This document shows, in pieces, positions 6,727 to 31,551 of a stretch of 33,021 nucleotides of DNA; positions within the stretch are counted from its first letter, which is position 1, and each line of letters starts with the position of its first letter. This DNA is from a virus. The stretch lies in IMG/VR virus record IMGVR_UViG_3300034101_003515, positions 1 through 33,021 of that record; one strand, 5' to 3'. The position numbers and the translations under genes were made by a program. The notes below the pieces were generated by a model. The model saw nothing but the letters and a program-made list of their open reading frames with translations, was not told where the DNA came from and did no database searches.

Positions 6727-8775
6727 ATGATCAGGAACGACTCACTAGTCACGAATCCAACGATGGCGAGATCCGGAGGAGCAGGAAACTCCCCTAGATA
6801 CCCGCATCCATTTTTCGATTTGGGACAGTCGTACCTACCAAATGATATCAAGCAGCTATTTCATTGGTGCAAATACTACTTCATGACTAACCCAGTCGTG
6901 AACGCAGCTATTAGCAAGATGGCGGAGTATCCTGTAACTCCTCTAGTATTTAAGACCAATGACGCGGCACAGCGCGCCAAGTATGAAGAACTTGCTCGTC
7001 TATTGCAGCTCAAGTCGCTGCGTATTGAAATCGGGTTAGATTACTTTACATACGGAAACGCATTCGTATCCATTATGTTTCCCTTTAAGAAGCATCTTGG
7101 GTGCGTTAGCTGCGGCCATGAAGTACATATAAAGAATTCAAATTACAAGTGGGTATCCATGAGATACCAGATAACTTGTAAGAAGTGTAATACAACCGGA
7201 TTTGCCAAAGTACGTGATGTGTACGTGAGAAGCGTGCGCGAGATCCGGTTAATGCGTTGGAATCCCGAAAACATCGATATCAACTACTCAGAGCTTTCTG
7301 GTAAGAAAACCGTCATCTACAACATTCCTGTAGGAGTGTCTAACGACATTATACAGGGTAAGCCTGATGCAGTGGATGAGCTGCCGGATACCTTCATTGA
7401 GGCGGTAAGAGCTAAGAAGAAGGTTTACTTCCACCCAGACAATGTATTCCATTTCCGGCGTCCCACCCTATCCCAGAAGATTCCTGGATGGGGCGCACCC
7501 ATTCTGCTACCTGTTCTCAAGGATCTACACTATCTAGGCGTTCTTAGAAGAGCGCAGGAAGCAGTGGCGCAGGAGCATATCGTTCCTCTGCGAGTCGTAT
7601 ATCCTTCTGCCGCGGGCGGAAGCTCTGACCCATTCAGTAATATCAATCTTACTGACTGGAAAACAGAGGTTGAGGATCAGCTAACTCAGTGGAAGCGAGA
7701 TCCCAACAGAATCCCTGTCATGCCTCTCCCACTAGGCATTCAGAGTATGGGCGGCGACGGTAGAGCTCTAATTCTCCACCAAGAGTATAGAGTTTGGGCA
7801 GAGCACATCGCTGCTGGTATGGGTGTACCTCCGGAGTTTATCTTCGGCGGCATTCAGTACTCCTCTACCAACCTAACCATGTTCCAGCTCCATAACAAGA
7901 TGCTTGGGTACTATGAGGAGCAAAAAGACCTAGTGTATGGATTCGTATACGCACGTATATGTTCCTACATGGGGTGGCCTGCGCCAGAGGGCGACTTTAA
8001 GCCTTTCAAGATGGCAGATGATCTTCAGAGAACCATGCTTTACTTCCAGCTGAATCAGGCAAATAAGGTGTCTGATGCTACGCTATTGGAAGATATTGGT
8101 ATGGATATCGATATGGAGCGTACGAGACTGCAAGCAGAGCGGTCTAGAACAATTGACCTGCAGAGTAAGCTCCAGCAAGAACAAGCCCACATACAGGGCG
8201 CCGTATCTGTCATCCAGAACAAGTACCAGATGGAAGTGCAGCGCCTGCAGGCTGAGATGCAGAACGAGATTCAGCAGCAGCAGATGCAGATGCAGCAACA
8301 AATGCAGCAACAGCAGGCGCCACAAGGAGAAGGCCAACCTCCACAAGAGCAGCCTCCGCAGGAACAGCCACCCGCGCCAGAGGGTGAGCAGCAAGAAGCT
8401 CCCGGAGGTGCTCTTATGGGGGAAGAAGTAGCGCCAGGGTTCCCAGCGGAAGCGACGGCATATCCTAACAATGCCCAAGCTGCGCCAGAAACAGGCGTGG
8501 AGCCTACAATTGGAAATCCCGAAGAGACTACTACCTCGGGGCTAAACTTAAATTACGTAGCTAAAAGAGCAGCGAACTTTTTAAGTTCCCTGCCCGCAGA
8601 GGATAGATCGCTGCGAATGACAATCATGCAATCTCAAAATCCTCGACTAGCGGGACTGGTAAATCAAATACTACAGTCTAGCGTAGGTTCCCAAGCAGAC
8701 ACCTTTAACGCGCAGCAGATGCCTCTGCCGCAGCAGCGTCCACAGCGGCGCAAGCAAGTCATAGGACCTGGTTGA
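6727..8775 (+). CDS. Portal protein with internal zinc ribbon
   Basis: A 682-residue protein with the hallmarks of phage portals, the dodecameric ring at the capsid vertex through which DNA is packaged and ejected. The N-terminal region (F46-Y108) has the portal-like pattern of new-helix and TNPVVNAAISKMA segments. The central region has the characteristic AAGMGVPPEFIFGG stretch (residues ~362-375), followed by SSTNLTMF as in portal family members. The C-terminal ~220 residues are a long coiled coil, then a Gln-rich and Pro-rich tail. Unusually, C126-x2-C129 and C151-x2-C154 form a zinc ribbon inserted in the clip/wing region. The length is within the large-portal range. The gene ends one base before the convergent minus-strand gene. 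The polymerase gene follows ~760 bases downstream. Confidence 0.85.
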   Translation: MIRNDSLVTNPTMARSGGAGNSPRYPHPFFDLGQSYLPNDIKQLFHWCKYYFMTNPVVNAAISKMAEYPVTPLVFKTNDAAQRAKYEELARLLQLKSLRIEIGLDYFTYGNAFVSIMFPFKKHLGCVSCGHEVHIKNSNYKWVSMRYQITCKKCNTTGFAKVRDVYVRSVREIRLMRWNPENIDINYSELSGKKTVIYNIPVGVSNDIIQGKPDAVDELPDTFIEAVRAKKKVYFHPDNVFHFRRPTLSQKIPGWGAPILLPVLKDLHYLGVLRRAQEAVAQEHIVPLRVVYPSAAGGSSDPFSNINLTDWKTEVEDQLTQWKRDPNRIPVMPLPLGIQSMGGDGRALILHQEYRVWAEHIAAGMGVPPEFIFGGIQYSSTNLTMFQLHNKMLGYYEEQKDLVYGFVYARICSYMGWPAPEGDFKPFKMADDLQRTMLYFQLNQANKVSDATLLEDIGMDIDMERTRLQAERSRTIDLQSKLQQEQAHIQGAVSVIQNKYQMEVQRLQAEMQNEIQQQQMQMQQQMQQQQAPQGEGQPPQEQPPQEQPPAPEGEQQEAPGGALMGEEVAPGFPAEATAYPNNAQAAPETGVEPTIGNPEETTTSGLNLNYVAKRAANFLSSLPAEDRSLRMTIMQSQNPRLAGLVNQILQSSVGSQADTFNAQQMPLPQQRPQRRKQVIGPG

Positions 8776-8776
8776 T

Positions 8777-9151
8777 TTAAGTATTCCAGGGAAGCGCATC
8801 CTCATCGATGTAGCACGAGGCGCAGTCTGGGTGCATGTAGACCTCGTAGAACTTCTCGTGCATCTCCACAATCTCTGAATCCGAGCCCAGCACACCCAAG
8901 CGGATCCTGAGCATCTCATCATCTTCTTTGATGCTTGTGGTGCATAGCACACAATTATCTACATCCTTTGCCTCAGTGACAAAGTGAGGTGTCATATCAT
9001 TCCATACGCTGCACTCTCGATGCTGCATGACTTCGTCGCATAGCTGAAAATATACATGCTTCATCTTTGACGAGAATCTCTGTCTACCAGTCTCAAAAGA
9101 GACGCACAGCTCCCCCGGAAGCATCTGCTTACTGCACACATCGCAACGCAT
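8777..9151 (-). CDS. Cys-rich protein with treble/zinc-finger pairs, 124 aa
   Basis: A 124-residue protein with several metal-binding pairs: C3-x2-C6 at the N-terminus, CVLC in the middle and CASC near the end, plus His residues (QHRE, MHPDC) that could complete two zinc sites. The pattern resembles small zinc-finger adaptor or anti-host proteins, but I recognise no family. The ATG has a strong ribosome site, AGGAGAG, 6 bases upstream, located inside the preceding gene, which it overlaps by 23 bases. It is the last gene of a three-gene minus-strand cassette wedged between the portal and polymerase genes. The stop is one base from the portal stop. Confidence 0.75.
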   Translation of the reverse strand: MRCDVCSKQMLPGELCVSFETGRQRFSSKMKHVYFQLCDEVMQHRECSVWNDMTPHFVTEAKDVDNCVLCTTSIKEDDEMLRIRLGVLGSDSEIVEMHEKFYEVYMHPDCASCYIDEDALPWNT

Positions 9152-9359
9152 ATATAGCTCTCCTAACTATCCGATATTCCCCGCAGTATGGACATTCCCC
9201 ATCTGAGAAATACCCCAGTACTTTCATATCTGCAGGTATCTCACAGAACGAGCATATCCACGAAACGTCCGGGTACGTTGCAGTAAAGAACCCACAACTC
9301 TGGCAATCTACATGACTACACAGAGTTGTGGGACTGAGCCAGCAGGTTACCCGACTCAC
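9129..9359 (-). CDS. Small multi-CxxC zinc-ribbon protein, 76 aa, GTG start
   Basis: A 76-residue protein with three Cys pairs: CQSC near residue 19, CSFC near 36 and CPYC near 56, plus nearby single cysteines. This is typical of a zinc ribbon plus an extra knuckle. The GTG start at 9359 overlaps the TGA of the upstream 31-residue gene (GTGA), a classic termination-reinitiation arrangement, and no independent ribosome site is visible. A perfect 12-base-pair hairpin occupies bases 28-69 of the gene. Function is unknown. Small zinc-ribbon proteins of phages often bind host or phage transcription factors, and this one lies just upstream of the divergent RNA polymerase gene, but no link is demonstrated. 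Confidence 0.65.
   Translation of the reverse strand: MSRVTCWLSPTTLCSHVDCQSCGFFTATYPDVSWICSFCEIPADMKVLGYFSDGECPYCGEYRIVRRAIYALRCVQ
9291..9332 (-). terminator. Intragenic 12-bp perfect hairpin with U-rich flank
   Basis: Arms 9291-9302 (CCCACAACTCTG) and 9321-9332 (CAGAGTTGTGGG) are perfect reverse complements around an 18-base loop. On the minus strand the stem is followed by TTCTTTACTG. It sits early in the 76-residue gene, just after the membrane-peptide gene. It could let the first gene be expressed without the two Cys-rich genes, which is inference. Confidence 0.5.
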
Positions 9360-9451: not shown

Positions 9452-9533
9452 AACAACTCCTTGTAATTTGCCACTACGGCATATACATTATCCCCAGTAA
9501 ACTGGTAGAATTTCGACGTCAGGGAGGCTGCGC
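9452..9533. promoter_or_regulatory. Divergent region between membrane peptide and RNA polymerase
   Basis: An 82-base gap containing both ribosome sites: AAGGAG on the minus strand and GGGAGG before the polymerase ATG. An AT-rich core (CATATACATTATCC, near 9479-9492) reads as GGATAATGTATATG on the minus strand, with a -10-like GATAAT. No clear -35 is seen. It probably holds the promoter for the leftward cassette and possibly one for the polymerase. Confidence 0.4.
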
Positions 9534-12500
9534 ATGACACCATTCAAGCCTGAGTCTATCTTCGCAAATATGAAAGAGAAGACCGTAGAGGCAGTGAAGA
9601 ACACCTTCACAATCAACGGTAAGAAGAATTCACTCGTTGTCGAGGACGTAACAATCACAGACGACAAGGATCCTCTGAACTTCCCCGAGCAGAATACCGC
9701 GAAGGACAAGGGCAACACATGGGGAGTTCCTGTCCACGCCAAAATATCTCTGATCAATAACGCCTCTGGTAACAGAATCAGCACACAGAAGATTAAGATA
9801 GCTGACCTCCCTAAAATTACTGGTAGACACTCCTTCCTAGTAAAGGGAGATGAGTACCAGGTACAGCATCAGTTCCGTAGAGCTCCCGGCGTATATACAA
9901 GAGTCGCGGATAACGGACACATTGAGGCTGTAGTAGGCGGCGGTATGCAGAAGCAGTTCCGCATGGGATTTAATCCCGACAGCAGAGAACTGCACATGCA
10001 GCTTGACCCAGATAGCACCTCAGTTGCCCCAATCATTCCTATGCTCCACATGGCTGGGGTAACTGAGGATGCCCTACACAAGACATTTGGAAAAGAGATC
10101 GTACAGGCTAACACTACTAAGAAACACATGGAGAAGGCCAAGACGGCCCTTACTAAGTTAGCTGGAGGAGTTCCTGTAGTACCGGGCCAGCACGCATCGC
10201 AGGTACTAAACACTCACTTGGATAAATGGAAGCTGACGCCAGCAGTAGTAGAGGACGTCTTGGGTAAGCCCAAGAACAGTTTTGACGTTGAAGCACTCGC
10301 ACTCACGGCGCACAAGCTCATTGGCGTATCAAAGGGTACTGTAGTACCGAGTACCTACGATAACGTCGGACACAAGCAGTTCCTCGATCCTGGAGATATT
10401 CTTTACGACACTCTAACGAGGACGAAAGTTAAGACTCAAATAAAACTACGCGGAAAGATTGATAGAGCTACAGACGTATCTGAGGCAATTGGTTCAAATA
10501 CGCTAACCAAGCCTATTGAGCAGTTCTTTCGTAACTCAGGTAAGGATGCCAGCGGTCTGTCTATGCGAGCAGACCAGATTAACCCACTTGCTATGATCGT
10601 AGGAGCTTCGCAGACCACTGTAATGGGTGCCGGCGGGATCAGCGAAGTTGTAGGAAGCGGTATCAATACTTCTCAGCTCGTACATGGCTCGCATATCGGG
10701 CATCTCGACCCGCTGGATACGGGCGAAAAGAAAGAATCCGGCCTAACCCTACCTTTACCACTTGGCGCGCAAAAGACAGGTAGCACTATCTCTGCGCAGC
10801 TATTCAATCTAAAGACTAGGAAGATGGAGCTTGTACCGGCTCTTGTATCTTACAAGGCGTATATCGCACTACCCGATGACGTAGCTTTTTCGGGTGGGAC
10901 CTACCAGCCTACTACAAAAGATAAACTGGTACGTGCGTCAGTCCCGGGCGGTAAGGTAGAGAGAGCTTCTTTCGCGAAAATTCAGTATGTCATGCCCTCT
11001 GCCATACAGCAGTTTGGCCTGGCCACCAATATGTTGCCGTTCTTGAATAATAATAACGGTAACAGAATGATGATGGCGGCCAAGCACGCTCGTCAAGCAG
11101 TAGCATTGCTAGACAAGGAAGAGCCGCTAGTACAGGTAACGTCCTCTCCAGGTTCTACGTTTGAGAAAGATGTAGGAAAGGCGGTAGCCCACGTTGCTAA
11201 TGCTGATGGTGTCGTAGAAAAGATTACGAAGGAACAGATCGTAGTCACCGATGCTAAAGGTCAGAAGCACATAACCTATCTATACGACCGCTTTATTACT
11301 ACTGAGAAAAAGACTGCGCTTAACTCCGTGCCGATAGTGAAGGTGGGAGACAAAGTGAAGAAGGGTCAGGTCATTGCGGACCAGACCTTCACAAAGAATG
11401 GAACTCTCACACTCGGTACTAACCTGCACATTGGTTATATGCCTATGCAGGGGTATAACTTTGAGGACGGTGTAGTAATCTCCGAATCGGCTGCGACTAA
11501 ATTAACGAGCGTACACACGTACCCTATAGACATTGAGTTTGCTGTACCTGTAGGCACGCTATTCAAGAGCACCAGTGAGCTGGAATCATTGGACTTTGGC
11601 TCCGAGGTTGCCTCCAAGTCGCTATATCAGGGATGGTGTGCAGTAAGCGCAGGTAAGCTCAATCTGACTAATATCTCTGACGACGGTATTGTCAAAGAAG
11701 GTGTCACAATACATCCAGGCGAGCCGCTTGCTTTGGCCATACGAAAGTCTCGGCCAGATTCAGCTCTCGCAGGTATGCGCGGTATGACAAAGAAGGCTAA
11801 GCCCCAGTGGGCCAGAGCGGATACTCTGTGGGAGTATGGGGTAATTGGCAAGGTCACTAAGGTATTTAAGAACGGCAAGAAGATCAGAATACTCGTAGAG
11901 ACCAAAGAAAAAATGTCTCTCGGCGATAAGCTGGTGGGCCGCTACGGAAATAAGGGAGTCGTTACCAAGATTCTCCCAGATAAGGAGATGCCCTTCGTAA
12001 AGCAGGGTAATACTTCCAAGCCACTAGAAGTTATTATGAATCCCATAGGTATTCCTGGCCGTATAAATCCCGGCCAGGTTTACGAATTGGCTGCGGCCAA
12101 GATAGCGCAAAAGACTGGCAAGGTTTACGAGGTAACTAACTTCGACCAGCACACCCCAGATATGACGTCCAAGCTGGAGAAAGAGCTGAAGAAACACGGA
12201 CTCTCGGACACCGATGATGTGTACGATCCTCAGCATGGCTATGTGGGTAAGGTGACGACAGGACCTCAGTACATACAGAAGCTGGTGCATCAGGTAGACA
12301 AGAAGCTAGGTGCTCGCGCAGGTGGCGCATCTTTGTCTGGAAGTTATAAGTACACGCCAGACAAGCAGCCTGCGAGAGGAGACGGTACAGGTGGTCAGTC
12401 ACTCTCTGCTCTAGGCTTGTACGCCCTACTTGGCCACAACGCCAGAATGAACATACAGGAACTACAGACACACAAATCAACCTACGAGAATGACCCTACG

Positions 12501-15500
12501 GATAGAACAGGCTATAACTCAGATGATTTCTGGATGAGCCTAATGTCCGGAGCTCCGCTTCCCCCGCCAAAGCCCACGTTTGCGTACAGCAAATTCCTCG
12601 GACATTTAAAGGGTATGGGCGTAAATATTGTAAAGAACGGAAATGAACTTCAGATGGTTCCTCTGACAGATAAGGAACTTCTGTCCGAGAAGCCGCATGA
12701 AGTAAAAGATCCTGCCAAGATATTGAAGGGTAAATCTGCCGAGCCGGATACAGGCGGCTTGTTTGATTTCCCGCAGGGAGGCATGGACTCTAAGAAGTGG
12801 GGCTATCTAAAGCTTGCAGAACCACTACCTAACCCCGTTATGGAGTCGGCAATAGAAACTCTGTTGGACTTGGGTAAGGGCGGAGTAACTTCAGTAATGA
12901 AGGGGGAGAAGAAGGTAGGAAACGCCACGGGCGGCATAGCGATTCAGAAGGCTCTGGCGGCAATTGACCCTACAAAGGAGATTGATAAGCTCAAGACCCT
13001 ACTCACGTCTAAGATCCCCGCAGACCAGAAGGACAAGCTCTACAAAAAGATAAAGCTGCTCAATAACCTTAAGAAGCTAAAAGTCTCTCCAGACGAGGCG
13101 TATGTAACTAATTATATGCCCATCCTTCCACCTGTCTTTAGGCCAATAGGTCTATCCGCAGCAGGAAGCATCGAGCAGGCAGATATCAATAGCTTGTACA
13201 AGACTACCGGATTGGCTAACGCGGCGTTGCGCGAGTTCGATCCGGCAGGTCTGCCAGAGAAGCGGGACGCTCTACGTGGCGAGCTATATGACTCTCTTAA
13301 GATGACATATCTAAATGGCATGCCCAACAGCCGTGGAGATCACATCTCAGGTTTGATGCAGTCTATCGCTAAGAAGCCCGGGGGACAGAGCAAGGACGCT
13401 ATGTACCAGGCTAAGATAGTAAAGCGTAGGTCTGATCTATCTGGTCGTGGCGTTATCATTCCAGAGCCTGCGCTCACGCTGGATGAGGTAGGACTGCCTC
13501 GTAAGATGGCAATGGAAATTTATAAGCCCTTCATAGTTAGAGAGCTTAGCGCGATGGGCTACTCTCACCTAGAGGCGCTCAGTCTCGCAGAGAGTGATCC
13601 GCAGAACCCTTCCGTAAAGCTTGCGCTCGACAAGGCTGTGTCCACTCGACCAGTTATGATTAAGCGAGATCCGGTACTCCACAAGTACGGCATCCTAGCG
13701 TTCAAGCCACAGATACACGAAGGAAAGGCCATGATGATTCACCCACTAGTCTGCTCTGGATTCAACGCAGACTTTGACGGTGACACTATGGCTACCTTCG
13801 TACCCGCATCGGATAAGGCAGTAGAGGAAGCTAGAAAAATGCTTCCTTCTAACAACCTGTTCAGCTCGACAACGTTCAAGCTGATGAATATGCCTGCGGC
13901 TGAAATGATTTACGGTATCTACCAGATGTCAGAAATGGGGAAGAAAACTAATTTGACTTTCCCCACTATCGCGGCAGTCGTAGAAAGCTACCACGGCAAG
14001 AAAACAGGGCTCACAGACCAGGTTAAGGTTGGCAGCAACCTCACCAACGCAGGTCGGTGTATGTTGTATAATTCTCTAACAAGCTCCGTAAAGGCGGACC
14101 CACTAGCACAAAAGATCCTATACGGACCCACACTCACTAAGAAACAACTTGACGAGTTCTTGTCTACCGTAGCCCGTACGCACAAGTCGGATTACCCCAC
14201 CATTTTGGACGCATGGAAGAATCTGGGAAATAAGTACGCTACTCTGCTCGGATCTTCATTCGCTCTAAAAGATTTCCGTTCGTACTCCGGTATCCGAGAT
14301 AAACATCTCGCTGCCGCTGATGCGGCGGTTTCCAAAATTAAGAATGTTACGGATAGAGATAAGACAGATATATATCTGAAGGCCGCGGATACTATTACAA
14401 AAGAAGTGGCGCAAGCAGCCAAGGCAGATAACAATTCATGGTACAAGTGGACCGAAGGATCCGGCGCATCTAAGAAGTGGAACCAGATAACTCAGTTGGT
14501 GGCTTCTCCTCTTATGGTTGTATCTGGTGATGGTGGCGTTGTCCCAGAGCCGATTAGAAAGTCTTACGCTGAGGGTCTGAGCACGGCGGATTACTGGACA
14601 GCAGTAAACGGTGTTCGTACAGGTACGCTATCTCGCGCCAAAGAAACCATGGAGCCTGGTGCACAGGCCAAGCGAATTATGAACCTCGGCGTAAATCTAC
14701 CTGTTACAAAAGAGGACTGTGGAACTACTGAGGGTATATTCATTAGTACAGGACAAGTCGACGCAGAAGGTAGATACTTAGCCGGTGACGTAGAGAAGTA
14801 TAAAGCCGGTGAGCTTGTCACATCTGAGGTGCTGCTGTCCGTGAGAGATAAGCATCCACAGATTAAGGTTCGCAGCCCTCTAAAGTGTAAGCTGCTAGAT
14901 GGTGTCTGTGCTAAGTGCTGCGGCATAAATGAGGATGGGCAACTACACCGCAAGGGAATGAACATGGGTGTACTTGCTGGCCAGGCTATGTCGGAGCCGC
15001 TGACCCAGATGAGCATGAACAGTTTCCATACAGGCGGTTCTGCGATGGGCGCTGGGGCAAAGGCTGCTGGCGAGTTCGAATCAGTGCAGCAGCTTCTTAA
15101 TATCCCAAAGCCCGAATCTATGAAGGTCAAGGCAACTATTACGCAGAAGAGCGGTAAAATCACCCGAATCTACCCAGATACTGCGGCAGGCGGCTTCTTT
15201 ATCACAGTAGACGATGCCCCGTACCGCGTACCTACCGGATTAAAGATTCTTGTGAAGGTAGGAGACTCGGTAACTGCGGGCCAACCTCTGTCCGAAGGTC
15301 CCGTATCTCCACATGAGCTACTACAGGCAACGGATATTGATACTGTACGTGGTTACCTAGTTGACTCTCTACACGAGATATACGATAAGAAGGGTGTGCG
15401 TAGAAGAAACATAGAGACCATCGTAAAGAACCTTACCAACACCGTGCGCGTAACCAAAGATCCTACGTTTGAGTATACTCCCGACGAGGTCATTAGCGAG

Positions 15501-15767
15501 ACTGAGGCTAAGAAAGAGAATGAGTCTCGTAAGCAGGATAACCTGCCTCCCATAGAGTACAAGAATGAAATCAAGGGTATCTCGGAAGCGGCGAAGGCTA
15601 TAGGCGGGACTGACTGGCTTGCGCGAATGAACCACATTGGACTAGAGCAGGTAATTAAGACAGGCGTAACTCATGGATATGTTTCAAATATCCACGGCGC
15701 GCACCCAATTGCAGGCATGGTTTATGGTGCGGAGTTCGGTGAGGGACAGGAAGACTGGGAGTACTAA
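9534..15767 (+). CDS. Single-chain DNA-directed RNA polymerase, fused beta and beta-prime
   Basis: A 2,077-residue multisubunit-type RNA polymerase catalytic chain. Beta half (~1-1036): FLVKGDEYQVQHQFRRAPGV (101-120), fork/Rif region around N350, GYNFED (640-645), GDKLVGRYGNKG with the two catalytic-site lysines (797-808), NPIGIPGRINPGQ (836-848), and the clamp segment near 917-985. The beta C-terminal motif (GMGVNIVKNG, to ~1036) runs into the beta-prime start (~1044) with almost no linker. Beta-prime half: GGLFDF (1074-1079), MPILPPVFRP (1195-1204), SGRGVIIPEP (1303-1312), catalytic NADFDGD (1411-1417), bridge helix from about 1693, second zinc site C1729/C1785/C1792/C1795, and trigger-loop FHTGG (1831-1835). 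The first beta-prime zinc finger is absent. It is about 25% shorter than E. coli beta plus beta-prime. The GGGAGG ribosome site is strong. It lies between portal and spike genes, and the next gene overlaps it by one base (TAATG). Confidence 0.95.
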   Translation: MTPFKPESIFANMKEKTVEAVKNTFTINGKKNSLVVEDVTITDDKDPLNFPEQNTAKDKGNTWGVPVHAKISLINNASGNRISTQKIKIADLPKITGRHSFLVKGDEYQVQHQFRRAPGVYTRVADNGHIEAVVGGGMQKQFRMGFNPDSRELHMQLDPDSTSVAPIIPMLHMAGVTEDALHKTFGKEIVQANTTKKHMEKAKTALTKLAGGVPVVPGQHASQVLNTHLDKWKLTPAVVEDVLGKPKNSFDVEALALTAHKLIGVSKGTVVPSTYDNVGHKQFLDPGDILYDTLTRTKVKTQIKLRGKIDRATDVSEAIGSNTLTKPIEQFFRNSGKDASGLSMRADQINPLAMIVGASQTTVMGAGGISEVVGSGINTSQLVHGSHIGHLDPLDTGEKKESGLTLPLPLGAQKTGSTISAQLFNLKTRKMELVPALVSYKAYIALPDDVAFSGGTYQPTTKDKLVRASVPGGKVERASFAKIQYVMPSAIQQFGLATNMLPFLNNNNGNRMMMAAKHARQAVALLDKEEPLVQVTSSPGSTFEKDVGKAVAHVANADGVVEKITKEQIVVTDAKGQKHITYLYDRFITTEKKTALNSVPIVKVGDKVKKGQVIADQTFTKNGTLTLGTNLHIGYMPMQGYNFEDGVVISESAATKLTSVHTYPIDIEFAVPVGTLFKSTSELESLDFGSEVASKSLYQGWCAVSAGKLNLTNISDDGIVKEGVTIHPGEPLALAIRKSRPDSALAGMRGMTKKAKPQWARADTLWEYGVIGKVTKVFKNGKKIRILVETKEKMSLGDKLVGRYGNKGVVTKILPDKEMPFVKQGNTSKPLEVIMNPIGIPGRINPGQVYELAAAKIAQKTGKVYEVTNFDQHTPDMTSKLEKELKKHGLSDTDDVYDPQHGYVGKVTTGPQYIQKLVHQVDKKLGARAGGASLSGSYKYTPDKQPARGDGTGGQSLSALGLYALLGHNARMNIQELQTHKSTYENDPTDRTGYNSDDFWMSLMSGAPLPPPKPTFAYSKFLGHLKGMGVNIVKNGNELQMVPLTDKELLSEKPHEVKDPAKILKGKSAEPDTGGLFDFPQGGMDSKKWGYLKLAEPLPNPVMESAIETLLDLGKGGVTSVMKGEKKVGNATGGIAIQKALAAIDPTKEIDKLKTLLTSKIPADQKDKLYKKIKLLNNLKKLKVSPDEAYVTNYMPILPPVFRPIGLSAAGSIEQADINSLYKTTGLANAALREFDPAGLPEKRDALRGELYDSLKMTYLNGMPNSRGDHISGLMQSIAKKPGGQSKDAMYQAKIVKRRSDLSGRGVIIPEPALTLDEVGLPRKMAMEIYKPFIVRELSAMGYSHLEALSLAESDPQNPSVKLALDKAVSTRPVMIKRDPVLHKYGILAFKPQIHEGKAMMIHPLVCSGFNADFDGDTMATFVPASDKAVEEARKMLPSNNLFSSTTFKLMNMPAAEMIYGIYQMSEMGKKTNLTFPTIAAVVESYHGKKTGLTDQVKVGSNLTNAGRCMLYNSLTSSVKADPLAQKILYGPTLTKKQLDEFLSTVARTHKSDYPTILDAWKNLGNKYATLLGSSFALKDFRSYSGIRDKHLAAADAAVSKIKNVTDRDKTDIYLKAADTITKEVAQAAKADNNSWYKWTEGSGASKKWNQITQLVASPLMVVSGDGGVVPEPIRKSYAEGLSTADYWTAVNGVRTGTLSRAKETMEPGAQAKRIMNLGVNLPVTKEDCGTTEGIFISTGQVDAEGRYLAGDVEKYKAGELVTSEVLLSVRDKHPQIKVRSPLKCKLLDGVCAKCCGINEDGQLHRKGMNMGVLAGQAMSEPLTQMSMNSFHTGGSAMGAGAKAAGEFESVQQLLNIPKPESMKVKATITQKSGKITRIYPDTAAGGFFITVDDAPYRVPTGLKILVKVGDSVTAGQPLSEGPVSPHELLQATDIDTVRGYLVDSLHEIYDKKGVRRRNIETIVKNLTNTVRVTKDPTFEYTPDEVISETEAKKENESRKQDNLPPIEYKNEIKGISEAAKAIGGTDWLARMNHIGLEQVIKTGVTHGYVSNIHGAHPIAGMVYGAEFGEGQEDWEY

Positions 15768-16867
15768 TGCTTGGCTATACGTCCCCGGTTGTCCGCATTG
15801 AAAGCGCAGTAATCACCCAAGTATATCCATCACTGTACCTAGTAGATGCTGTAACCACCAAGAACGGAAGAATCTTTCGGAAGATACCTTACTCCACTGC
15901 TATGTCCGGTAGTGGTTATGGTATTAACTTCGTTCCGAAACGAGGGTCTCTGTGCTGGGTGATGCTGTCATCCTCAGATCCATCAAACTCAAATATCCAA
16001 CTTATCCCCAGCATCATTGGCTTTCAATCTTCACAAGAAGGCGGATCGCACAAGGATGGAAGAAGAGACCTGGATGAATCTGATATAGTTATGGATACCC
16101 CTGGTGGCGCTACCGTGCTACTTCGGGCAAATGGACTAGTTGAGATTAGCGGCGGCGCACTCGCAAGGACGCTGTATCTACCAGTCTCAAACACTATTTT
16201 TAGCCTATGTCAGAATCACCAGATAACTACTCCTACGGGAGAGTTTAAATGGAGTACTGTTTCTGACGAGGACTCTGATGGAGCCTCATCAGTATCCTTT
16301 GCCCTCAAAGAGTTGGGCGGTGACGCATCGGCATTTCTACGGGTGAGCGCGGGAGAATCGTCCGGTGGGCTAGAAATAATCCTGCTAAAAGATGGAGAAG
16401 AGTCTAGCGCGGAGAGTGGGGATGATGGGTTGCCCACAGGATTGGCTTGCCAGTGGAAGATTGATAAACGTGGTAACGTGGAGATGCGCGCAAAGAGCAA
16501 GATGCTTCTTCATGCAGATGAAACTCTCGACATAGAATCCTCGGCAATCACTCTTTTTGCGGATACCTCAATATCACTTGTATGCGGTACATCTAGAATC
16601 GATATAACACCCGATTCTATTTCTCTGAGTTCCCCAACTCTTGCGCTATCTACGGGGGGAATGTCGGTGACTACCCCAGAAGGCTCAGAATTATTGATGC
16701 TTTCCCCTAGATCACCTAAGCTGGTGACTGAAGCAATCATTCCATTCATAAAAACACACACGCACAACATCACTGCACCTGTTGCGGGAGAAATAACTAC
16801 CCCTCCCACACAGGCACCGAGTATAGTAGAATCCTTGCTGACTACCAAATCCACAGGAATTGTATAA
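15767..16867 (+). CDS. Baseplate spike / assembly protein V-like
   Basis: A 366-residue protein with an N-terminal OB-fold-like region (residues ~8-85: beta strands, RGSLCWVMLSSSDP), a Gly/Asp/Ser-rich middle, then a beta-repetitive stretch (about 225-310: NVEMRAKSKM, DITPDSISLSSP) like the triple-stranded beta-helix of gp5/VgrG/gpV spikes. The C-terminus THTHNITAPVAGEI resembles the tip region of baseplate proteins, where paired histidines can bind a metal. It would form the membrane-piercing tip at the end of the tail, implying a contractile or otherwise spike-bearing tail. Translation is coupled to the polymerase by a TAATG overlap with GGGAG upstream. The exact family should be treated as probable. 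Confidence 0.65.
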   Translation: MLGYTSPVVRIESAVITQVYPSLYLVDAVTTKNGRIFRKIPYSTAMSGSGYGINFVPKRGSLCWVMLSSSDPSNSNIQLIPSIIGFQSSQEGGSHKDGRRDLDESDIVMDTPGGATVLLRANGLVEISGGALARTLYLPVSNTIFSLCQNHQITTPTGEFKWSTVSDEDSDGASSVSFALKELGGDASAFLRVSAGESSGGLEIILLKDGEESSAESGDDGLPTGLACQWKIDKRGNVEMRAKSKMLLHADETLDIESSAITLFADTSISLVCGTSRIDITPDSISLSSPTLALSTGGMSVTTPEGSELLMLSPRSPKLVTEAIIPFIKTHTHNITAPVAGEITTPPTQAPSIVESLLTTKSTGIV

Positions 16868-18811
16868 ATGGAACCACTTTTCTTCTACAAGAAGGCCGCA
16901 CTCGTGATGGCCGCAGATTCCAATCTTCCCAGTGATTCAAACCAGTGGTCATCTAGCATCCTAGATGAGCTACTGAAGCAGGCTCCATACGTAAATTCAT
17001 TTTCCCCAATGGTCCAGTTGGACAAAATTGATTCCAATAAGGGGTATGGATTTGGAATGATCAAGATCGAGTCGAACGGTAACTCAGCTTCGATTCCAAT
17101 AGTGATCAAGGACGGTAAGCTAAGTCCGCTCGACGTATTCTTCGATAGTAATGGCAAGGGGTTCCCTCTCTCGGAAGAGAGATTCAACGAGGTTCTCTTA
17201 AATCCCACGCTATTCGGCGGCACCATTTCGGCAGAGAGCGCCACCAATAAGCACCTCGGTAATATGCTTACTCCTCCGTGGGAGAACCTCGGTGGCTTCC
17301 AGCACCTAGACCAGAACCTATCCTTCTATGAGAAGACGTCCATGTTGGCCGCACTCCGCGGAACAGTCCGTAAAGAGGACGTCGCTAAGTTGGCTTCATG
17401 GGTTAACTCTATGGAAGGCAAGGTTTGCCTAGATAGTGCACCAGCAGAGAAGTTTTTAGCGGCGTCTGTTCTTGAGGTAGCCCCTAGCCACCATACTAGG
17501 TCTGTAAAAACCGCGCACGTTATTCAATTCCGTAAGTCTGGAGACAGCTATTTCGTCAAGGTAGCTGCTCCCAATGACTTTGCCCCCGCTCCTGAGATGG
17601 AAGTACCTCAGAGAGAGGTACAAGAGGCGCTTCCCCCACAGGAGATGGCGCAGTTGGAGCAAGAGGGCGATGTAACAATACAGAGCCCCCCAAATGCAAT
17701 ACCTCCTGCAACACAGGTTGTGCAGGATGCGCAATTCATCCCTGCCGTTAATTACGGGGTATACAGAGTCCAGACTGTTACAGGCGAGGACAACGTGGGT
17801 TGGGTATTCCCACAGGTATTTACCTACGCAATGCAGCCTCTCCCAGTTAAGCTATTTGCGGACGGCAGGCAGCACGCGATTCAGCAAGAGATTACGGGTG
17901 TTCCCGTGGGCCAAGGTTCGTCGCTGCCCAATGCTCCCATCACAGGAGCGGGTTTCTTTTACCTCACAAAGGGAGCTACAACTGTAGCGTTTGCCCCGGT
18001 AATGGTTAAGGGAACCAGTGTAGACCCCTCCGGAAATACTGTCTATATGTGCCAGGGTATGCTAACTGGCGCAAATATCAATATCTCTCTCGTTCCAGGC
18101 GTGGCGATGCCGATGGAGTTCGGCCCAGAGTCGTATGCCATACCACCTGAGTGTGGGTTTATGCCTCTAGGCGATCCTTCCCACAAGCTCCTCGGAGACG
18201 CCGCGCAGGCTACGTCACTAAACTCTACGGAGCAGCAAAAGCAGGCGAGCGGACAGGTAATCAAGGCTCGTGTTACAACTGATGGTTCAGTATCCCTAGC
18301 CGGCCCTGCTCTAAATGGCGTGGAAGCAAACTTCCTAAAGGTCGCAGAAGCGAAATTCCTACTAGCCTGTATGGGTGTATCTCCTAGAGATTCCGCGATT
18401 AAGCTCGCTAATGCTTACAAGACTCGAGGAATGACTAACTTCTTCGTGAGTTCTCCAATAACACCGCGGCATTTCAACAAGATCGCCAAGAGCACGCAGC
18501 ACATTGACTCTTTCATAGCTAACATCAAGACTGCTCTTTACAAGGAAGCCGCTGAGGTAGCTTCGGTGGATCCAGGGTCGGCTGACGCGATTCTCAGCCT
18601 ATCCTTCCTGTCTGCGGATAACCTACAGAGATTTATCTCTTACCTCCCACAGCTACAGGACGCTATGAGCGCTCTCGCAAACTTGCTGCTCGCCAGCAGA
18701 CTTGGCCTCGCCCAGATCCCCGAGGATTCCTGCTCAAACGCTCTTAAGGCGTTGGACAAGGCAGTACAGGGGCTAAAGCTAATGCAGGTTTCCGACCAGA
18801 CCGCAGCCTAA
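16868..18811 (+). CDS. Large hypothetical virion protein, 647 aa
   Basis: A 647-residue protein starting immediately after the spike gene stop. Residues ~1-200 are mixed alpha/beta; ~220-290 are Pro/Gln/Glu-rich and probably disordered. Residues ~290-450 are beta-rich with Gly turns, and ~480-647 are helical. It carries seven K-[LIVT]-A tripeptides (for example VKTAHV, VKVAAP, LKVAEA, NKIAKS). No catalytic motif, signal or membrane segment is recognised. Its place behind the polymerase and spike genes suggests a structural or tail-associated protein, or a partner packaged with the polymerase; this is inferred from neighbourhood only. The stop overlaps the convergent minus-strand gene by 4 bases. 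Confidence 0.75.
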   Translation: MEPLFFYKKAALVMAADSNLPSDSNQWSSSILDELLKQAPYVNSFSPMVQLDKIDSNKGYGFGMIKIESNGNSASIPIVIKDGKLSPLDVFFDSNGKGFPLSEERFNEVLLNPTLFGGTISAESATNKHLGNMLTPPWENLGGFQHLDQNLSFYEKTSMLAALRGTVRKEDVAKLASWVNSMEGKVCLDSAPAEKFLAASVLEVAPSHHTRSVKTAHVIQFRKSGDSYFVKVAAPNDFAPAPEMEVPQREVQEALPPQEMAQLEQEGDVTIQSPPNAIPPATQVVQDAQFIPAVNYGVYRVQTVTGEDNVGWVFPQVFTYAMQPLPVKLFADGRQHAIQQEITGVPVGQGSSLPNAPITGAGFFYLTKGATTVAFAPVMVKGTSVDPSGNTVYMCQGMLTGANINISLVPGVAMPMEFGPESYAIPPECGFMPLGDPSHKLLGDAAQATSLNSTEQQKQASGQVIKARVTTDGSVSLAGPALNGVEANFLKVAEAKFLLACMGVSPRDSAIKLANAYKTRGMTNFFVSSPITPRHFNKIAKSTQHIDSFIANIKTALYKEAAEVASVDPGSADAILSLSFLSADNLQRFISYLPQLQDAMSALANLLLASRLGLAQIPEDSCSNALKALDKAVQGLKLMQVSDQTAA

Positions 18812-19098: not shown

Positions 19099-19535
19099 GT
19101 TACCTGTATCTTTGTTATGTTACTTTCGACTAGGTTGATATACCTAGTCTTGGTACATTCTCTCCGCAAGCATTGTTGCAGCTTGCTGGGGCCATGAGCA
19201 TACACGCACAAGGTACCCCGTAGCGAATGCTTCTGCAATAGACTTTTAAGAAAGTCTACGCCCACTTGAATTGGGTCGCACTCTCCTACCTTTGGACAAA
19301 GATATTTAGGCGTTATCTGTAACGGACCAGTTACTCCATTCTTTCTGGTCACATCAAGGAACCCGCTCTCTGTCATGGCGAGTCCAATTGGGATTGCCGA
19401 ATCAACTCCAGAGATTTCTGCCTTTGCCCCGATCTGAAGACAGATTAAGAATCTAGAGCCGTACCCAGGAGCATCTGGAACAGCCGCGCCGCACTGGGAA
19501 AACAGTGTGAGCACAATGGATAGTAGTTGTAGCAT
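19050..19535 (-). CDS. Secreted lytic transglycosylase (SLT-like), probable endolysin
   Basis: A 161-residue protein beginning with a hydrophobic Sec-type signal (MLQLLSIVLTLFSQCGAA) with likely cleavage after the AA near residue 18. The mature part has SLT/goose-lysozyme-like motifs: catalytic glutamate E56 in AMTESGF, and GVTGPLQITPKY matching the family G-x-x-G-x-x-Q-[IL]-x-P signature. Such enzymes cleave the MurNAc-GlcNAc bond of peptidoglycan. A signal-bearing lysozyme suggests export to the periplasm for host lysis, though a virion-tip muralytic role is possible. Seven cysteines suggest disulfides after export. AGGAGG lies 6 bases before the ATG at 19535. The gene diverges from the terminase gene. 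Confidence 0.75.
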   Translation of the reverse strand: MLQLLSIVLTLFSQCGAAVPDAPGYGSRFLICLQIGAKAEISGVDSAIPIGLAMTESGFLDVTRKNGVTGPLQITPKYLCPKVGECDPIQVGVDFLKSLLQKHSLRGTLCVYAHGPSKLQQCLRRECTKTRYINLVESNITKIQVTWQDRMWQRLKEWYKT

Positions 19536-19597
19536 TGTTACCTCCTATTCGTTATTATTCCAAGCAACTGTCACAATTTGTAACCACTCGGGGATGC

Positions 19598-21343
19598 ATG
19601 CCTGTAATCAAGAACACCGCGCATAATCGTGACCTGCTCGGAACATCGTCCGTCATAAGCAAAGAAGGCTCCGCGCTCGATCAGCTTGAGGTGGAGTCTT
19701 TGGTGGATGATACCCACGTTAAATATGTAGATCAGGGTCCAATAACCGAGATTCTCCCTAGTGACTTCGTAGAATTCGCAATCAGAATTCCAGATCCGGC
19801 AACAAAGCAGCTTCTTCCTTTCTCGTTTGACCAACGCCGGTATCTGCGACCGATCTACGACTCTACGAGCCCCCGAGTGTTATTCAAGTGCGGACGACAG
19901 GTAGAGAAGTCTACCTTCTTAGGGAATAGAATTCTAGCCCTCACCTGTATCCAACCTTCCTTCACAGCCCTGTACGTTAGCCCAACTAACCAACAGGCGA
20001 AAGTTTTTTCTAACGATAGATTGCGGGAAGCTATAGAAACTTCTGAGAAATTGAAGGCGTGGACAGCCGACAACGTATCCAACGTGTTCAACAAGAAGTT
20101 CATCAATCGCTCGCAGATTGTTCTGCGCTACGCATACTTAAATGCTGACCGTGTCCGTGGTATCGCGGCAGACAGCGTATCCATTGACGAGATACAGGAC
20201 ATTATCGGAGACAACATCTCCGTTATCGAGGAATGCGCATCTCACTCCGCTTTCAGATTGTTCATGTACTCAGGTACTCCGAAGTCTCTGGACAATACGA
20301 TTGAAAGCATTTGGGTAAACGAATCTACTCAGAATGAATGGGTAGTTCCCTGCGACTCCTGCGGTGGCGGGGATTTCCGGTACTGGAACGTAGGACTAGA
20401 CGAGGACAATATCGGCAAGCATGGCTTGATGTGTCGTAAGTGCAAGCAGCTTATTGACCCGATGCATGCAGATGCTCAGTGGGCAGCTCTAGTAGAGAAT
20501 CCTAATGTCCCTCACCCATTTGACGGGTATCGAGTAAGTCAGCTTATGGTGCCCTGGATTAAGTGGCCCGACATTCTCCAGAAGCAATTAACTTACTCCA
20601 GATCTAAGTTCTTCAACGAGGTGCTTGGACTTAGTTTCGATTCTGGTTTGCGTCCCTTGACACGCCAGGACGTCATGGACAACTGCGATAGCGCTCTTAG
20701 TATTTCTACCAGCGAGCTGGAGAAAAATATTCGGGCCACAGAAGGTAGATACGTTTTCGCGGGGATAGACTGGGGAGCAGAAAACTCAAAAACAGTAATG
20801 GTGATAGCATCCTATACGGGCACTGATAAGTTCTCCATTATCTATGCGCATAGATTTGAGGGACGGGAGAGCGAGCCGCAAGTTCAGCTAGAGCTAATCA
20901 ACCAGCTTATTGATAAGTTTAGGGTTGCTCTGGTGGGCGTTGACTACGGTGGCGGTCTGGATAGAAATGACGCGCTAATCCGTAAGTGGGGACCGACCAA
21001 GATAGTTAAGTATCAGTACTCTCCACTATCTTCTGCTAAGTGGAAGTGGGAGGAAGGTCTTAAGAGATTCCAAGTGAATCGTACCGAGGTAATGTCTGAC
21101 ATATTTAACGCAATTAAGCGCAGAAACGTATTCAGATTCCCTAACTGGCCAGAGTTTGAGCGGCCTTATGCGCAGGATATGCTTAACATCTTCTCTGAGT
21201 ATTCAGAGGAGCGGAGATGTAACGAGTATAAACTTACTCGCGGCCTTACCGACGACTCGTTTCACGCGCTAGTTCTTTGCTTCCTAGTGTCGCAGATAAA
21301 GCAGCTTAGGCCCGATGTATTTGTACCCCACAAGGAAACTTAA
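19598..21343 (+). CDS. Terminase large subunit (packaging ATPase and nuclease)
   Basis: The DNA-packaging motor. From the chosen ATG it has 581 residues. Walker A is GRQVEKST (99-106). Walker B is the SIDEIQD segment with D197 and E198. A zinc ribbon of two CxxC pairs (PCDSCGG and MCRKCK) lies between ATPase and nuclease domains, as in GpA-like terminases. RNase H-fold nuclease acidic residues are D391 (GIDWG), D449 (VGVDYG) and D552/D553 (TDDSFHA). An upstream in-frame TTG at 19535 would add 21 residues, but it has no ribosome site and overlaps the divergent gene start, so the ATG at 19598 is preferred. No small terminase is recognised nearby. The 3' end overlaps the convergent regulator by 4 bases. 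Confidence 0.92.
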   Translation: MPVIKNTAHNRDLLGTSSVISKEGSALDQLEVESLVDDTHVKYVDQGPITEILPSDFVEFAIRIPDPATKQLLPFSFDQRRYLRPIYDSTSPRVLFKCGRQVEKSTFLGNRILALTCIQPSFTALYVSPTNQQAKVFSNDRLREAIETSEKLKAWTADNVSNVFNKKFINRSQIVLRYAYLNADRVRGIAADSVSIDEIQDIIGDNISVIEECASHSAFRLFMYSGTPKSLDNTIESIWVNESTQNEWVVPCDSCGGGDFRYWNVGLDEDNIGKHGLMCRKCKQLIDPMHADAQWAALVENPNVPHPFDGYRVSQLMVPWIKWPDILQKQLTYSRSKFFNEVLGLSFDSGLRPLTRQDVMDNCDSALSISTSELEKNIRATEGRYVFAGIDWGAENSKTVMVIASYTGTDKFSIIYAHRFEGRESEPQVQLELINQLIDKFRVALVGVDYGGGLDRNDALIRKWGPTKIVKYQYSPLSSAKWKWEEGLKRFQVNRTEVMSDIFNAIKRRNVFRFPNWPEFERPYAQDMLNIFSEYSEERRCNEYKLTRGLTDDSFHALVLCFLVSQIKQLRPDVFVPHKET

Positions 21344-22951: not shown

Positions 22952-23470
22952 ATGTCCAGATCGAATGCCACGAAGACTGCGCAGTATCTACGAAATAACC
23001 CATTCCTCACGGAGAAGCACGCGGCGTTTGCCGACCTCTCAAAGCAGATAGGCAAGCAGATTGCGTACGTAGCTGCGGGAACTCTTACTGCCGCAGGTAT
23101 CAATAAGGGTCTAAGTGTCTTGGGCAGCAAGATGGACCAAAATAAGAAGTCGGGAAACATCGCCAAGATGTACGCTGTCGCCCCTCAGCTTCGCGCAGTT
23201 GACCCTAAGATGGTCTCTCTAGTCTATGACTCCCTAGCCACCGTGGCTCCTACAGTAGCAGCTGATCCGCTTCTCGCGAGTCAGTACATCCTACAGTACG
23301 CACAGAGAAACCAGCACGATCTTACCACTCTCTCATTCATGGGCAAGATGGAACCTCGTAACAATAATCTAGGTTCTGACCTCCGTAATCGCATGGTAGT
23401 TGATATCGGTTCGGTCATTGCCAATGCACCTGCGCTTGAGCGCCAGATGGGGCGCAAGAAGTCGCCGTGA
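22952..23470 (+). CDS. Hypothetical head-operon protein, 172 aa
   Basis: A 172-residue protein. An N-terminal segment with TKTAQY is followed by a hydrophobic helix (residues ~32-52, KQIAYVAAGTLTAAGINKGL) that could be a membrane or core helix. A helical Ala/Leu-rich middle and a basic end (GRKKSP) complete it. AGGAG is 11 bases before the ATG, a long spacing. The TGA stop overlaps the GTG of the protease gene (GTGA), so the two are translationally coupled, suggesting a protein needed in fixed ratio with the protease. Function is unknown. Confidence 0.72.
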   Translation: MSRSNATKTAQYLRNNPFLTEKHAAFADLSKQIGKQIAYVAAGTLTAAGINKGLSVLGSKMDQNKKSGNIAKMYAVAPQLRAVDPKMVSLVYDSLATVAPTVAADPLLASQYILQYAQRNQHDLTTLSFMGKMEPRNNNLGSDLRNRMVVDIGSVIANAPALERQMGRKKSP

Positions 23471-25008
23471 TCAAGCACTCTCTTTTCTCGGGGAAAAGCC
23501 CCTCTGGGGAGCAGTTGATTAATATCATCACCCCCGGAAATGATTTTGTTAAGACGGCTGGTATCCACCCAGAGATCCAGGCGTACAAACAAAACTTATC
23601 ACCAGAACCCAACAAGACATATTTGCATATTCTTGCATTGGGGGCTGGTGAATACTATGGTTCTAACTTGAACCATGACTATTTTCCTTGGGATGGTCTA
23701 GTACACGATCATACGAGAGTCCCACACAAGTACGTACACGGGTATAAGACGTTCCTAAATGCGCATGCTTTTGCGCACCATCAGAATAATGACCCAACTA
23801 AGGCGTACGGCGACGTACTTGTTTCAGTTCTCAACGAGAAGATGAAGCGAGTGGAACTCATCGCTGTAGTTGATCATGCAAAGTGTAAGGCTCTTGGTGG
23901 CGAAAAGATTCTGGAGAAGTTGATCGAAGGTAAGGATATGGCAACCTCGATGGGTTGTAGAATTCCTTACGATGTGTGCATGATTTGCGGAAATGTTGCG
24001 CCTACTCGTAGAGAGTACTGCGAATGCATGCTAAAGAGAGCGGGACAGATATTACCAGACGGCAGAAAAGTCTGCGTGAGTAACCCGTTCCCCAGATTCT
24101 TTGATATCAGTTTTGTGTATATCGGAGCTGATAGGACGTCGCACGTACTAGAAAAGATAGCGACGGTGGTGGACATGGGCGCGCATACTGGTCTAACTAA
24201 AACAGCGAGCGTGACACCTATGATCTCTCCACCAAAAGTAAAGATTGCCGCAGAAGAAAAGCTGAGCGAGATATTTAAAGAGATTGACGGGTATCCACTA
24301 GGGCAGGCAGTAAATCTATTGCACGAAAATGAGTGCAGCATGCCCGAAGAAGAAATTCAGAGAATTGCGGAAACTCCAAATCTACCTCATGCGCTTTCTA
24401 ACCTAGCCGGTAACGGCGTAATTGTATCTCCTCGGGAGTTTACACGAATAATAGTAATCCGCGGCGGAGCACCACGGCATACGCCATTGCATGTAGAGCC
24501 GGAACTAAATCACGACGTCGATGATGACTTTCTGCGTAAGATGATTCAGTTTGGCGCGACACCCATGCGGCATAGCCCTCTTCTAGAATCCCGTTCTTAT
24601 TTAGCCCCATACTTCTTTAGGAGATTAATTTCTCCCACAAAATTGGCGAACAAAGAAGTAAGAACTAAGGTTGCTATGCCTGATATCTCTAGGCTATACA
24701 ATGCTTACAGATATGGCGTTCTTTACAACATGGATAAATACGCTGAGATAGCGTGTGGCTGCGATCCCAGTGAGGAACTATCCTCAGAGGATATGCAGGT
24801 AGTATCTGCGCTATCTAGTATTCCACTAATGTATGCTATGCACTCTTACTGGGGTAAGTCTCCAGAAGAAAACAAGCTGTTTTTGCGTGACTTCCTACTT
24901 CACAGTCCTGTAGTATCTTCTGCATTGCTGTCTGCAGGTAATGGCATGACCGTACAACAGCTTTTAGCCAAGTATCCAATTGAAAAAATAATGCAGTGGA
25001 TACATTGA
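23467..25008 (+). CDS. Putative capsid maturation (prohead) serine protease, GTG start
   Basis: A 513-residue protein whose first ~235 residues resemble prohead proteases of large tailed phages. A His-rich segment (HAFAHHQNNDP, H100/H104/H105) and a KAYGDV strand are followed by the TSMG motif with candidate nucleophile S161. A zinc knuckle, C171-x2-C174 with C185 and C187 (CMICGNVAPTRREYCEC), and the conserved FFDISFVYIGADRT strand complete the core. These proteases cut head proteins before DNA packaging. The C-terminal ~280 residues are helical and unassigned, longer than simple proteases, and could be a scaffold extension. It contains six K-[LIVT]-A tripeptides itself. The GTG overlaps the previous stop. 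Confidence 0.7.
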   Translation: MIKHSLFSGKSPSGEQLINIITPGNDFVKTAGIHPEIQAYKQNLSPEPNKTYLHILALGAGEYYGSNLNHDYFPWDGLVHDHTRVPHKYVHGYKTFLNAHAFAHHQNNDPTKAYGDVLVSVLNEKMKRVELIAVVDHAKCKALGGEKILEKLIEGKDMATSMGCRIPYDVCMICGNVAPTRREYCECMLKRAGQILPDGRKVCVSNPFPRFFDISFVYIGADRTSHVLEKIATVVDMGAHTGLTKTASVTPMISPPKVKIAAEEKLSEIFKEIDGYPLGQAVNLLHENECSMPEEEIQRIAETPNLPHALSNLAGNGVIVSPREFTRIIVIRGGAPRHTPLHVEPELNHDVDDDFLRKMIQFGATPMRHSPLLESRSYLAPYFFRRLISPTKLANKEVRTKVAMPDISRLYNAYRYGVLYNMDKYAEIACGCDPSEELSSEDMQVVSALSSIPLMYAMHSYWGKSPEENKLFLRDFLLHSPVVSSALLSAGNGMTVQQLLAKYPIEKIMQWIH

Positions 25009-31077: not shown

Positions 31078-31551
31078 ATGGCGCAACAACAGTCTTTGTA
31101 TGAATTCGTCCGCGAAGTACGCATGTACTTGAGGGACTTCTCCGAGCTTAACAGGCTAATCACTGGGGAGGAATCATCGGATAGGATGATTGCATGGGCT
31201 GTTATTGACGCACTTGATGATATCAATACATCACCCCCACTAATATCAAAGTACACCGTAGAAAACTTTCCCAATAGAAGCCTTCTATTGAGAGGAGCTG
31301 TTATATCTCTATTAGAGTCTGTGGGTATTATGCAGACTAGAAATCAGCTAAACTTCTCTGATGGTGGTATACAGGTCAGTGTGAGCGATAAAGCTCCAAT
31401 GATTTTACAGTGGCTTAATTTCCTCAAAGGTTCTTACGAGGATAAGAAAACAAGATGGAAAATAGCCACTAATATCCAGATGGCCATGACTGGATCTGGT
31501 ATAATCTCGGATTACTATTTCTTAGGCGGAATCTACCATTTGGAGACTTGA
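31078..31551 (+). CDS. Hypothetical connector-like protein, 157 aa
   Basis: A 157-residue helical protein: N-terminal REVRMYLRDFSELNRLI, a central RGAVISLLESVG and a C-terminal TRWKIATNIQ. It ends with a Tyr/Gly-rich strand (DYYFLGGIYHLET). The all-helical layout with a terminal strand resembles head-tail connector or adaptor proteins located after capsid genes, but no signature motif is present, so that is a guess from order. GCGGAG is 8 bases before the ATG. There is a 3-base gap from the previous gene, and its last codons carry the GGAG ribosome site of the next gene. Confidence 0.68.
   Translation: MAQQQSLYEFVREVRMYLRDFSELNRLITGEESSDRMIAWAVIDALDDINTSPPLISKYTVENFPNRSLLLRGAVISLLESVGIMQTRNQLNFSDGGIQVSVSDKAPMILQWLNFLKGSYEDKKTRWKIATNIQMAMTGSGIISDYYFLGGIYHLET

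Follow-up and report, generated by a model that had tools for sequence, protein, structure and literature searches.

In almost all bacteria, the beta and beta' subunits of RNA polymerase are separate proteins. In Helicobacter and Wolbachia the two are instead joined end-to-start in one chain, beta then beta' (RpoBC; NF007172 and NF011417), and these fused enzymes are cellular, lie far nearer to other bacterial polymerases than the enzyme described here, and act together with alpha, omega and sigma. Among phages, the closest described systems are those of Salmonella phage Arash (gp206 and gp216) and the Vibrio phages D69, D181 and D148, in which a polymerase lacking alpha and omega is encoded downstream of the portal gene; gp206 is labeled 'beta' in the Arash paper, with no mention of a fusion in the passages that describe it (PMC10585845). 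Here, we analyze a 33,021-nucleotide stretch of viral DNA (IMG/VR record IMGVR_UViG_3300034101_003515; "the window"), in which a 2,077-codon open frame at 9534-15767 encodes a complete bacterial-type beta followed, without interruption, by beta'. The frame packs the whole catalytic core of a bacterial-type enzyme into one chain, and the phage that carries it is large, tailed and related to Arash. The kind of polymerase is known; what is new is its single-chain form, in a phage lineage that Arash partly represents. Features given below lie on the forward strand unless otherwise stated.

Other phage polymerases differ more strongly from this enzyme. The phiKZ/AR9-type virion and non-virion RNA polymerases are, like it, multisubunit-class enzymes without alpha or omega. 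One form is packaged, and their beta' is cut after its barrel at a site resembling the ~1500 cut in relatives of the window's enzyme (see below), but they consist of four or five chains, have beta cut as well, use no sigma and are far more divergent (PMC7598289, PMC7824862). The crAss-like phi14:2 gp66, P23-45 gp64/gp96, YonO and QDE-1 likewise carry both barrels in one chain, and some are packaged, yet they form the other major two-barrel clade, without the set of domains seen in bacteria (PMC10770324), and beta/beta' hidden Markov models (HMMs) miss the crAssphage polymerases (PMC7481178). The window's enzyme does not belong to this class, as its similarity to bacterial beta and beta' is full-length and extends beyond the DxDxD motif. 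An initial sequence-only reading of the frame had drawn the contrast with phiKZ/AR9 and crAss-type enzymes, and it stands. The mReC phages (Weinheimer and Aylward 2020) have deep-branching beta and beta' that are recognized by cellular HMMs, as is the window's polymerase. They are described as having beta and beta' subunits, with fusion mentioned for crAssphage only, and are defined in part by a beta' with NADxDGD, a motif also found in the window (PMC7481178). Compared by description only, their capsids (PF07068, gp23-like) are unlike that of the window, and capsid and terminase families differ or overlap partly; a search that used the beta' of Rhizobium Y65 to reach mReC contigs found no relatives. 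In the literature searched, we found no earlier report of a fused bacterial-type phage beta/beta', and one paper mentions in passing multisubunit derivatives 'with fused DPBB domains' (double-psi beta-barrels).

Separate bacterial profiles match the two parts of the chain in sequence, in line with the order first read from the frame. The beta part (residues ~1-1043; 9534..12662) is matched by the rpoB models TIGR02013 (6e-90) and PRK00405 (1e-91), and the beta' part (residues ~1044-2077; 12663..15764) by the rpoC model TIGR02386 over residues 1126-2023 (1e-138). Pfam domains follow along the chain as Rpb2_6 (554-932), Rpb1_2 (1370-1437) and Rpb1_5 (1681-1974). The N-terminal ~260 residues of beta have diverged in sequence, yet are covered by an AlphaFold2 model. 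The frame opens with an ATG at 9534, preceded by a Shine-Dalgarno sequence (GGGAGG, 9522..9527), and ends with a stop codon at 15765-15767. Portal, terminase large subunit (TerL) and capsid genes accompany it on this record and support a phage origin, and no second polymerase was found in its 33,021 bases. The enzyme had been described as unusually close to its bacterial counterpart; this is true of its domain plan and not of its sequence, which is ~25-30% identical to the bacterial enzyme and places the phage clade on a long branch.

Structure prediction supports the same assignment. Residues 878-2077 were modeled from a 27-row alignment with a predicted local distance difference test score (pLDDT) of 82.9 and a predicted template-modeling score (pTM) of 0.79, and residues 1-1100 with a pLDDT of 80.9 and a pTM of 0.73. 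In Foldseek comparisons, the former aligns to bacterial beta' (8i24_D) with template-modeling (TM) scores of 0.77/0.80 and the latter to bacterial beta with a TM score of ~0.70. The 878-2077 model matches the fold of 618 chains in the Protein Data Bank at E<=0.001, and the resemblance is therefore not due to chance.

The catalytic machinery is intact in both halves, as had been proposed. The beta barrel carries active-site lysines K799 and K807 within GDKLVGRYGNKG (residues 797-808; 11922..11957), and the beta' barrel carries the Mg-binding D1413, D1415 and D1417 of NADFDGD (residues 1411-1417; 13764..13784). These residues, the trigger-loop histidine (His 1832 in NSFHTGG, residues 1829-1835; 15018..15038) and the four cysteines of the second zinc site (1729, 1785, 1792 and 1795; 14718..14918) are invariant across the phage clade in every member examined. 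The bridge helix, flap and clamp helices are also retained in both sequence and model. The N-terminal zinc ribbon of bacterial beta' is absent throughout the clade; its deletion maps to residues 1076-1090 of the window's protein (12759..12803). Thus, the catalytic residues and full-length profile and fold matches place the enzyme in the bacterial-type multisubunit clade, while of the other features typical of that class the zinc ribbon is missing, and alpha and omega were not found in the records searched. The two double-psi barrels contribute to one active site, formed jointly by the beta lysines and the beta' aspartates. Elsewhere in the trigger loop, the equivalent of Arg933 is Asn in the window and variable among relatives, being Ser, Gly or Asn in those with two or three chains; the equivalent of Phe935 is Lys in 25 of 25 two- and three-chain relatives.

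Aligning 34 phage and four bacterial sequences (38 in all) places the bacterial break between beta and beta' exactly at residues ~1037-1046 of the window's protein (12642..12671). No linker is present, in agreement with the near-absent linker noted from the sequence: the beta C-terminus '...GVNIVKNGNELQMVP' passes into the beta' N-terminus 'LTDKELLSEKPHEVKDPAKI', and the additional residues with which bacterial beta' begins are missing. None of the 34 phage members is cut at this position; all are fused. In the 878-2077 model the junction forms a beta-hairpin (1030-1043), and ten-residue blocks around it have pLDDT values of 92-95; the junction is less confident in the 1-1100 model because the chain ends soon after it. 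An independent contig, L004, encodes a protein 84% identical to the window's and covers residues 1-1130, thereby crossing the junction. Between the two, the proportion of synonymous differences (pS) over residues 1001-1090 is 0.80 and that of nonsynonymous differences (pN) is 0.09, the latter similar to the rest of the protein. Since synonymous sites are saturated and pN is this low, the frame must be translated across the junction under constraint. Six further metagenomic relatives (L013, L014, L017, L089, L090 and L091) encode end-to-end open single chains. A working chain can be made by artificially joining the beta and beta' of E. coli, and an active fused phage core is therefore plausible. 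By sequence and model, beta (1-~1043) leads through a short hairpin into beta' (~1044-2077); we propose that this arrangement makes assembly assisted by alpha and omega unneeded and fixes a 1:1 stoichiometry.

The sequence-only reading had regarded this enzyme as an unusual case; it proves instead to represent the one-chain state within a large lineage, some members of which are cultured and partly fused. In annotated phage records, a tblastn search recovers Arash together with the Vibrio D69 group. In these phages, beta shares one chain with the N-terminal half of beta', and the remainder of beta' forms another chain, encoded a few genes away. Profile scans of IMG/VR add ~90 further loci, some of them duplicates. 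Reading frames define three states: one chain; two chains, cut at ~1500; and three chains, cut at ~1130 and ~1500. The single-chain set comprises the window and the six end-to-end relatives named above; L069 runs over its contig ends. The first fission site, used in Arash, D69 and others, corresponds to residues 1500-1502 (14031..14039), and the second, used in three-chain relatives, to residues 1130/1131 (12921..12926); both are uncut in the window. Arash and the Vibrio phages share with the window the fused beta/beta' junction and the upstream portal gene, and differ from it in the beta' cut and in sequence (~30% identity). All traits of the Arash-like lineage are present in the window: the fused junction, the upstream portal, TerL of phrog_675 and a capsid protein of phrog_2522. 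In D181 and D148 beta is cut too, beside a homing endonuclease; in D181 (L008, 3959-9473), where the endonuclease gene adjoins the split, and in L030, the apparently recent break lies near window residue 506.

What does this polymerase do? Mass spectrometry of Arash virions recorded 3516 spectra for gp206, the highest of all proteins, 1210 for gp216 and 467 for the sigma factor gp10 (PMC10585845). Per residue, we calculate semi-quantitative values of 2.3 for gp206 (1525 aa), 2.0 for gp216 (606 aa) and 2.0 for gp10 (234 aa), which suggest near-equal amounts of the three proteins in virions. Since portal and capsid genes flank that of the window's polymerase and its Arash homologues are the top virion proteins, the best-supported role is that of a virion polymerase, which we infer to be a packaged core-sigma complex for early transcription. 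By analogy with Arash, the polymerase would travel inside the virion, probably together with a small phage-encoded sigma, enter the cell and transcribe the early genes. Alternatively, the same enzyme could go unpackaged and be made after infection to transcribe middle or late genes, as the phiKZ/AR9 non-virion enzymes do. The window fragment bears no direct sign of packaging, and a promoter-like block upstream of the gene, with a bacterial extended -10, is compatible with expression by the host polymerase. We nonetheless consider this alternative unlikely, given the abundance of the Arash homologues in virions with sigma at matching spectra per residue, the position of the gene among virion genes, and the finding of only one polymerase in each of the relatives searched.

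The absence of alpha, omega and sigma, also proposed at the outset, holds for the first two: neither was found in 15 records, including the isolate genomes of Arash and D69, with bacterial controls positive. Sigma is a different matter, as relatives encode sigma factors and Arash packages one. No sigma was recognized within the window, probably because it is only a 33-kb fragment. Above cut-off, region 2 was matched in 5 of 14 related records and region 4 in 4 of 15, among them the single-chain L089, whose 243-residue sigma has both regions. In the 168-kb record of the single-chain L069, the sole sigma match is to region 4 in a 438-residue protein (L118:748-2064) whose N-terminus resembles a helix-turn-helix; this protein may be an unusual initiation factor.

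To trace the direction of change, we rooted a tree on bacterial beta/beta'. The phage clade is monophyletic (support 100/100), and the three-chain members form one clade (99/99) nested in a grade of two-chain members; constraining the latter to a single clade is rejected (approximately unbiased test, p-AU 1e-61). The two- and three-chain members together are supported at 97/99 in the careful tree, and three changes are required, the smallest number that could account for the three states. A further line of evidence does not depend on the tree: the 'beta' of three-chain members carries a C-terminal tail extending past the end of the beta profile, which by profile comparison is a beta' N-terminus (probability 93.8, E 1.8e-7, beta' 29-126, with the zinc ribbon deleted). 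A beta' remnant on the end of beta is a scar left by an earlier fusion. Together, the nesting and the scar indicate that the fusion is older than the fissions, which occurred at new sites. We propose that a single beta-beta' fusion founded the lineage and that later cuts arose inside beta', at ~1500 and then at ~1130.

The ~1500 site is also where two cyanobacterial models meet: TIGR02387 (rpoC1) ends at 1500 and TIGR02388 (rpoC2) starts at 1533. The phiKZ-type beta' break is reported to lie at the cyanobacterial position, and a cyanobacterial origin has been suggested on that account (PMC7598289); split phage subunits have also been argued to be relics predating the last universal common ancestor (LUCA) (PMC7824862). 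In the lineage described here, the ~1500 break arises among relatives with uncut single chains, and its position alone is therefore weak evidence of ancestry. With moderate confidence, we conclude that the fused single chain is ancestral here, that the splits were regenerated by fission inside beta', and that ~1500 is a recurrent hot spot rather than a cyanobacterial or pre-LUCA trace. The reverse, an ancestral multi-chain state from which the single chain later arose by fusion, would accord with the pre-LUCA argument for phiKZ-type enzymes, and the deep root order is not firmly resolved. It is nevertheless improbable, as neither ~1130 nor ~1500 is a break point in the bacterial outgroups, the bacterial break point is fused in all phage members, and three-chain forms both bear the scar and nest within two-chain forms.

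A recent capture of fused rpoBC from a Helicobacter- or Wolbachia-like host has very little to recommend it. The parallel drawn by the sequence-only reading is sound as to order and join, and the fused Helicobacter-type family NF007172 is the best single NCBIfam match (3e-149); the enzyme is not the same, however, since this match scores 498 bits where the curated cut-off is 5372 bits, the phages group as one clade on a long branch (in the tree lacking Helicobacter and Wolbachia rows), the zinc ribbon is lost, and alpha and omega are absent. Finally, an assembly artefact or read-through joining two genes, conceivable for a metagenomic contig, is ruled out by L004 crossing the junction under purifying selection, by the six end-to-end relatives from other metagenomes, and by the fusion of cultured Arash and D69 at the same place.

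Overall, we think it likely that the window encodes a single-chain bacterial-type core of an Arash-related phage, packaged in the virion with sigma and descended from one ancestral fusion followed by fissions. Several points weigh against this interpretation. The authors of the Arash study note that abundant enzymes could be carry-over (PMC10585845), and the packaging evidence comes from this two-chain relative only, at ~30% identity. The single chain could possibly be cut by proteolysis after translation. In the tree, support for the two- plus three-chain clade falls to 1 without the two longest single-chain rows, making a single fission at ~1500 likely rather than certain.

The surrounding genes resemble those of Arash. 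The portal protein (6727..8775), a homologue of Arash gp204, is encoded upstream of the polymerase in the relatives examined. Between the two genes lie two small reverse-strand genes (8777..9151 and 9129..9359), both kept in L004 and L090. Closer to the polymerase, a non-coding promoter-like block, TATACATTATCC...TGGTAGAATTT (9482..9515), is conserved in the same two relatives and contains the extended -10-like TGGTAGAAT; from its sequence, it is possibly a promoter or operator. When sought as a repeated phage promoter, it yielded one perfect copy only in the window, and thus no promoter family is established. Downstream, a 366-residue protein with a weak DUF2345 match (15767..16867) is found in single-chain members only (L090, L017, L091, L014, L013 and L089); at the counterpart position Arash encodes the packaged helicase gp217. 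There follow a 647-residue homologue of the Arash virion protein gp218 (16868..18811), TerL (19535..21343; phrog_675, as in Arash), homologues of virion proteins gp221 (22952..23470) and gp222 (23467..25008), the major capsid protein (29436..30602; phrog_2522, as Arash gp226) and a homologue of virion protein gp233 (31078..31551).

Several relatives carry intein-like insertions of ~330-520 residues, several of them within active-site motifs (NADFDGD, GNKG and the trigger loop): at ~residues 1367-1890 in L014, and at window-equivalent positions 837 and 1417 (L091), 402 (L089), 801 (L097) and 1833 (L090). LAGLIDADG or intein-splicing domains were detected in these insertions, some under the curated cut-off. 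In two loci (L025:13002-16325 and L082:6360-9287), the C-terminal beta' chain is extended by an unexplained ~380-500 residues. A scan of genome contigs for hosts returned two binned fragments of this polymerase only, L133 and L134, assigned to an uncultured bacterium and a Woesearchaeota genome; both are probably mis-binned phage contigs. Acinetobacter 'phage' MD-2021a and two Salmonella records were rejected as phage relatives: they carry chromosomal rpoB/rpoC beside ribosomal-protein genes and were therefore used only as bacterial outgroup. CAKLQH020000005 and AFYI01000006, filed as phage, are bacterial chromosome segments with an rpoBC operon. The unannotated wastewater contigs L006 and L009, bacteria-like in the tree, likewise served as outgroup.

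Published views of split phage polymerases rest partly on the positions at which subunits are cut (PMC7598289, PMC7824862). In the lineage described here, a series of one, two and three chains can be observed, the outgroup is uncut and a scar of the fusion persists, making the direction of change testable. A single-gene, bacterial-type core that lacks alpha and omega is also a simple construct with which to study structure and transcription, and Arash, a cultured phage of Salmonella, probably carries a virion holoenzyme of this lineage. More broadly, the lineage points to a possible origin of the oddly split polymerases of giant phages.

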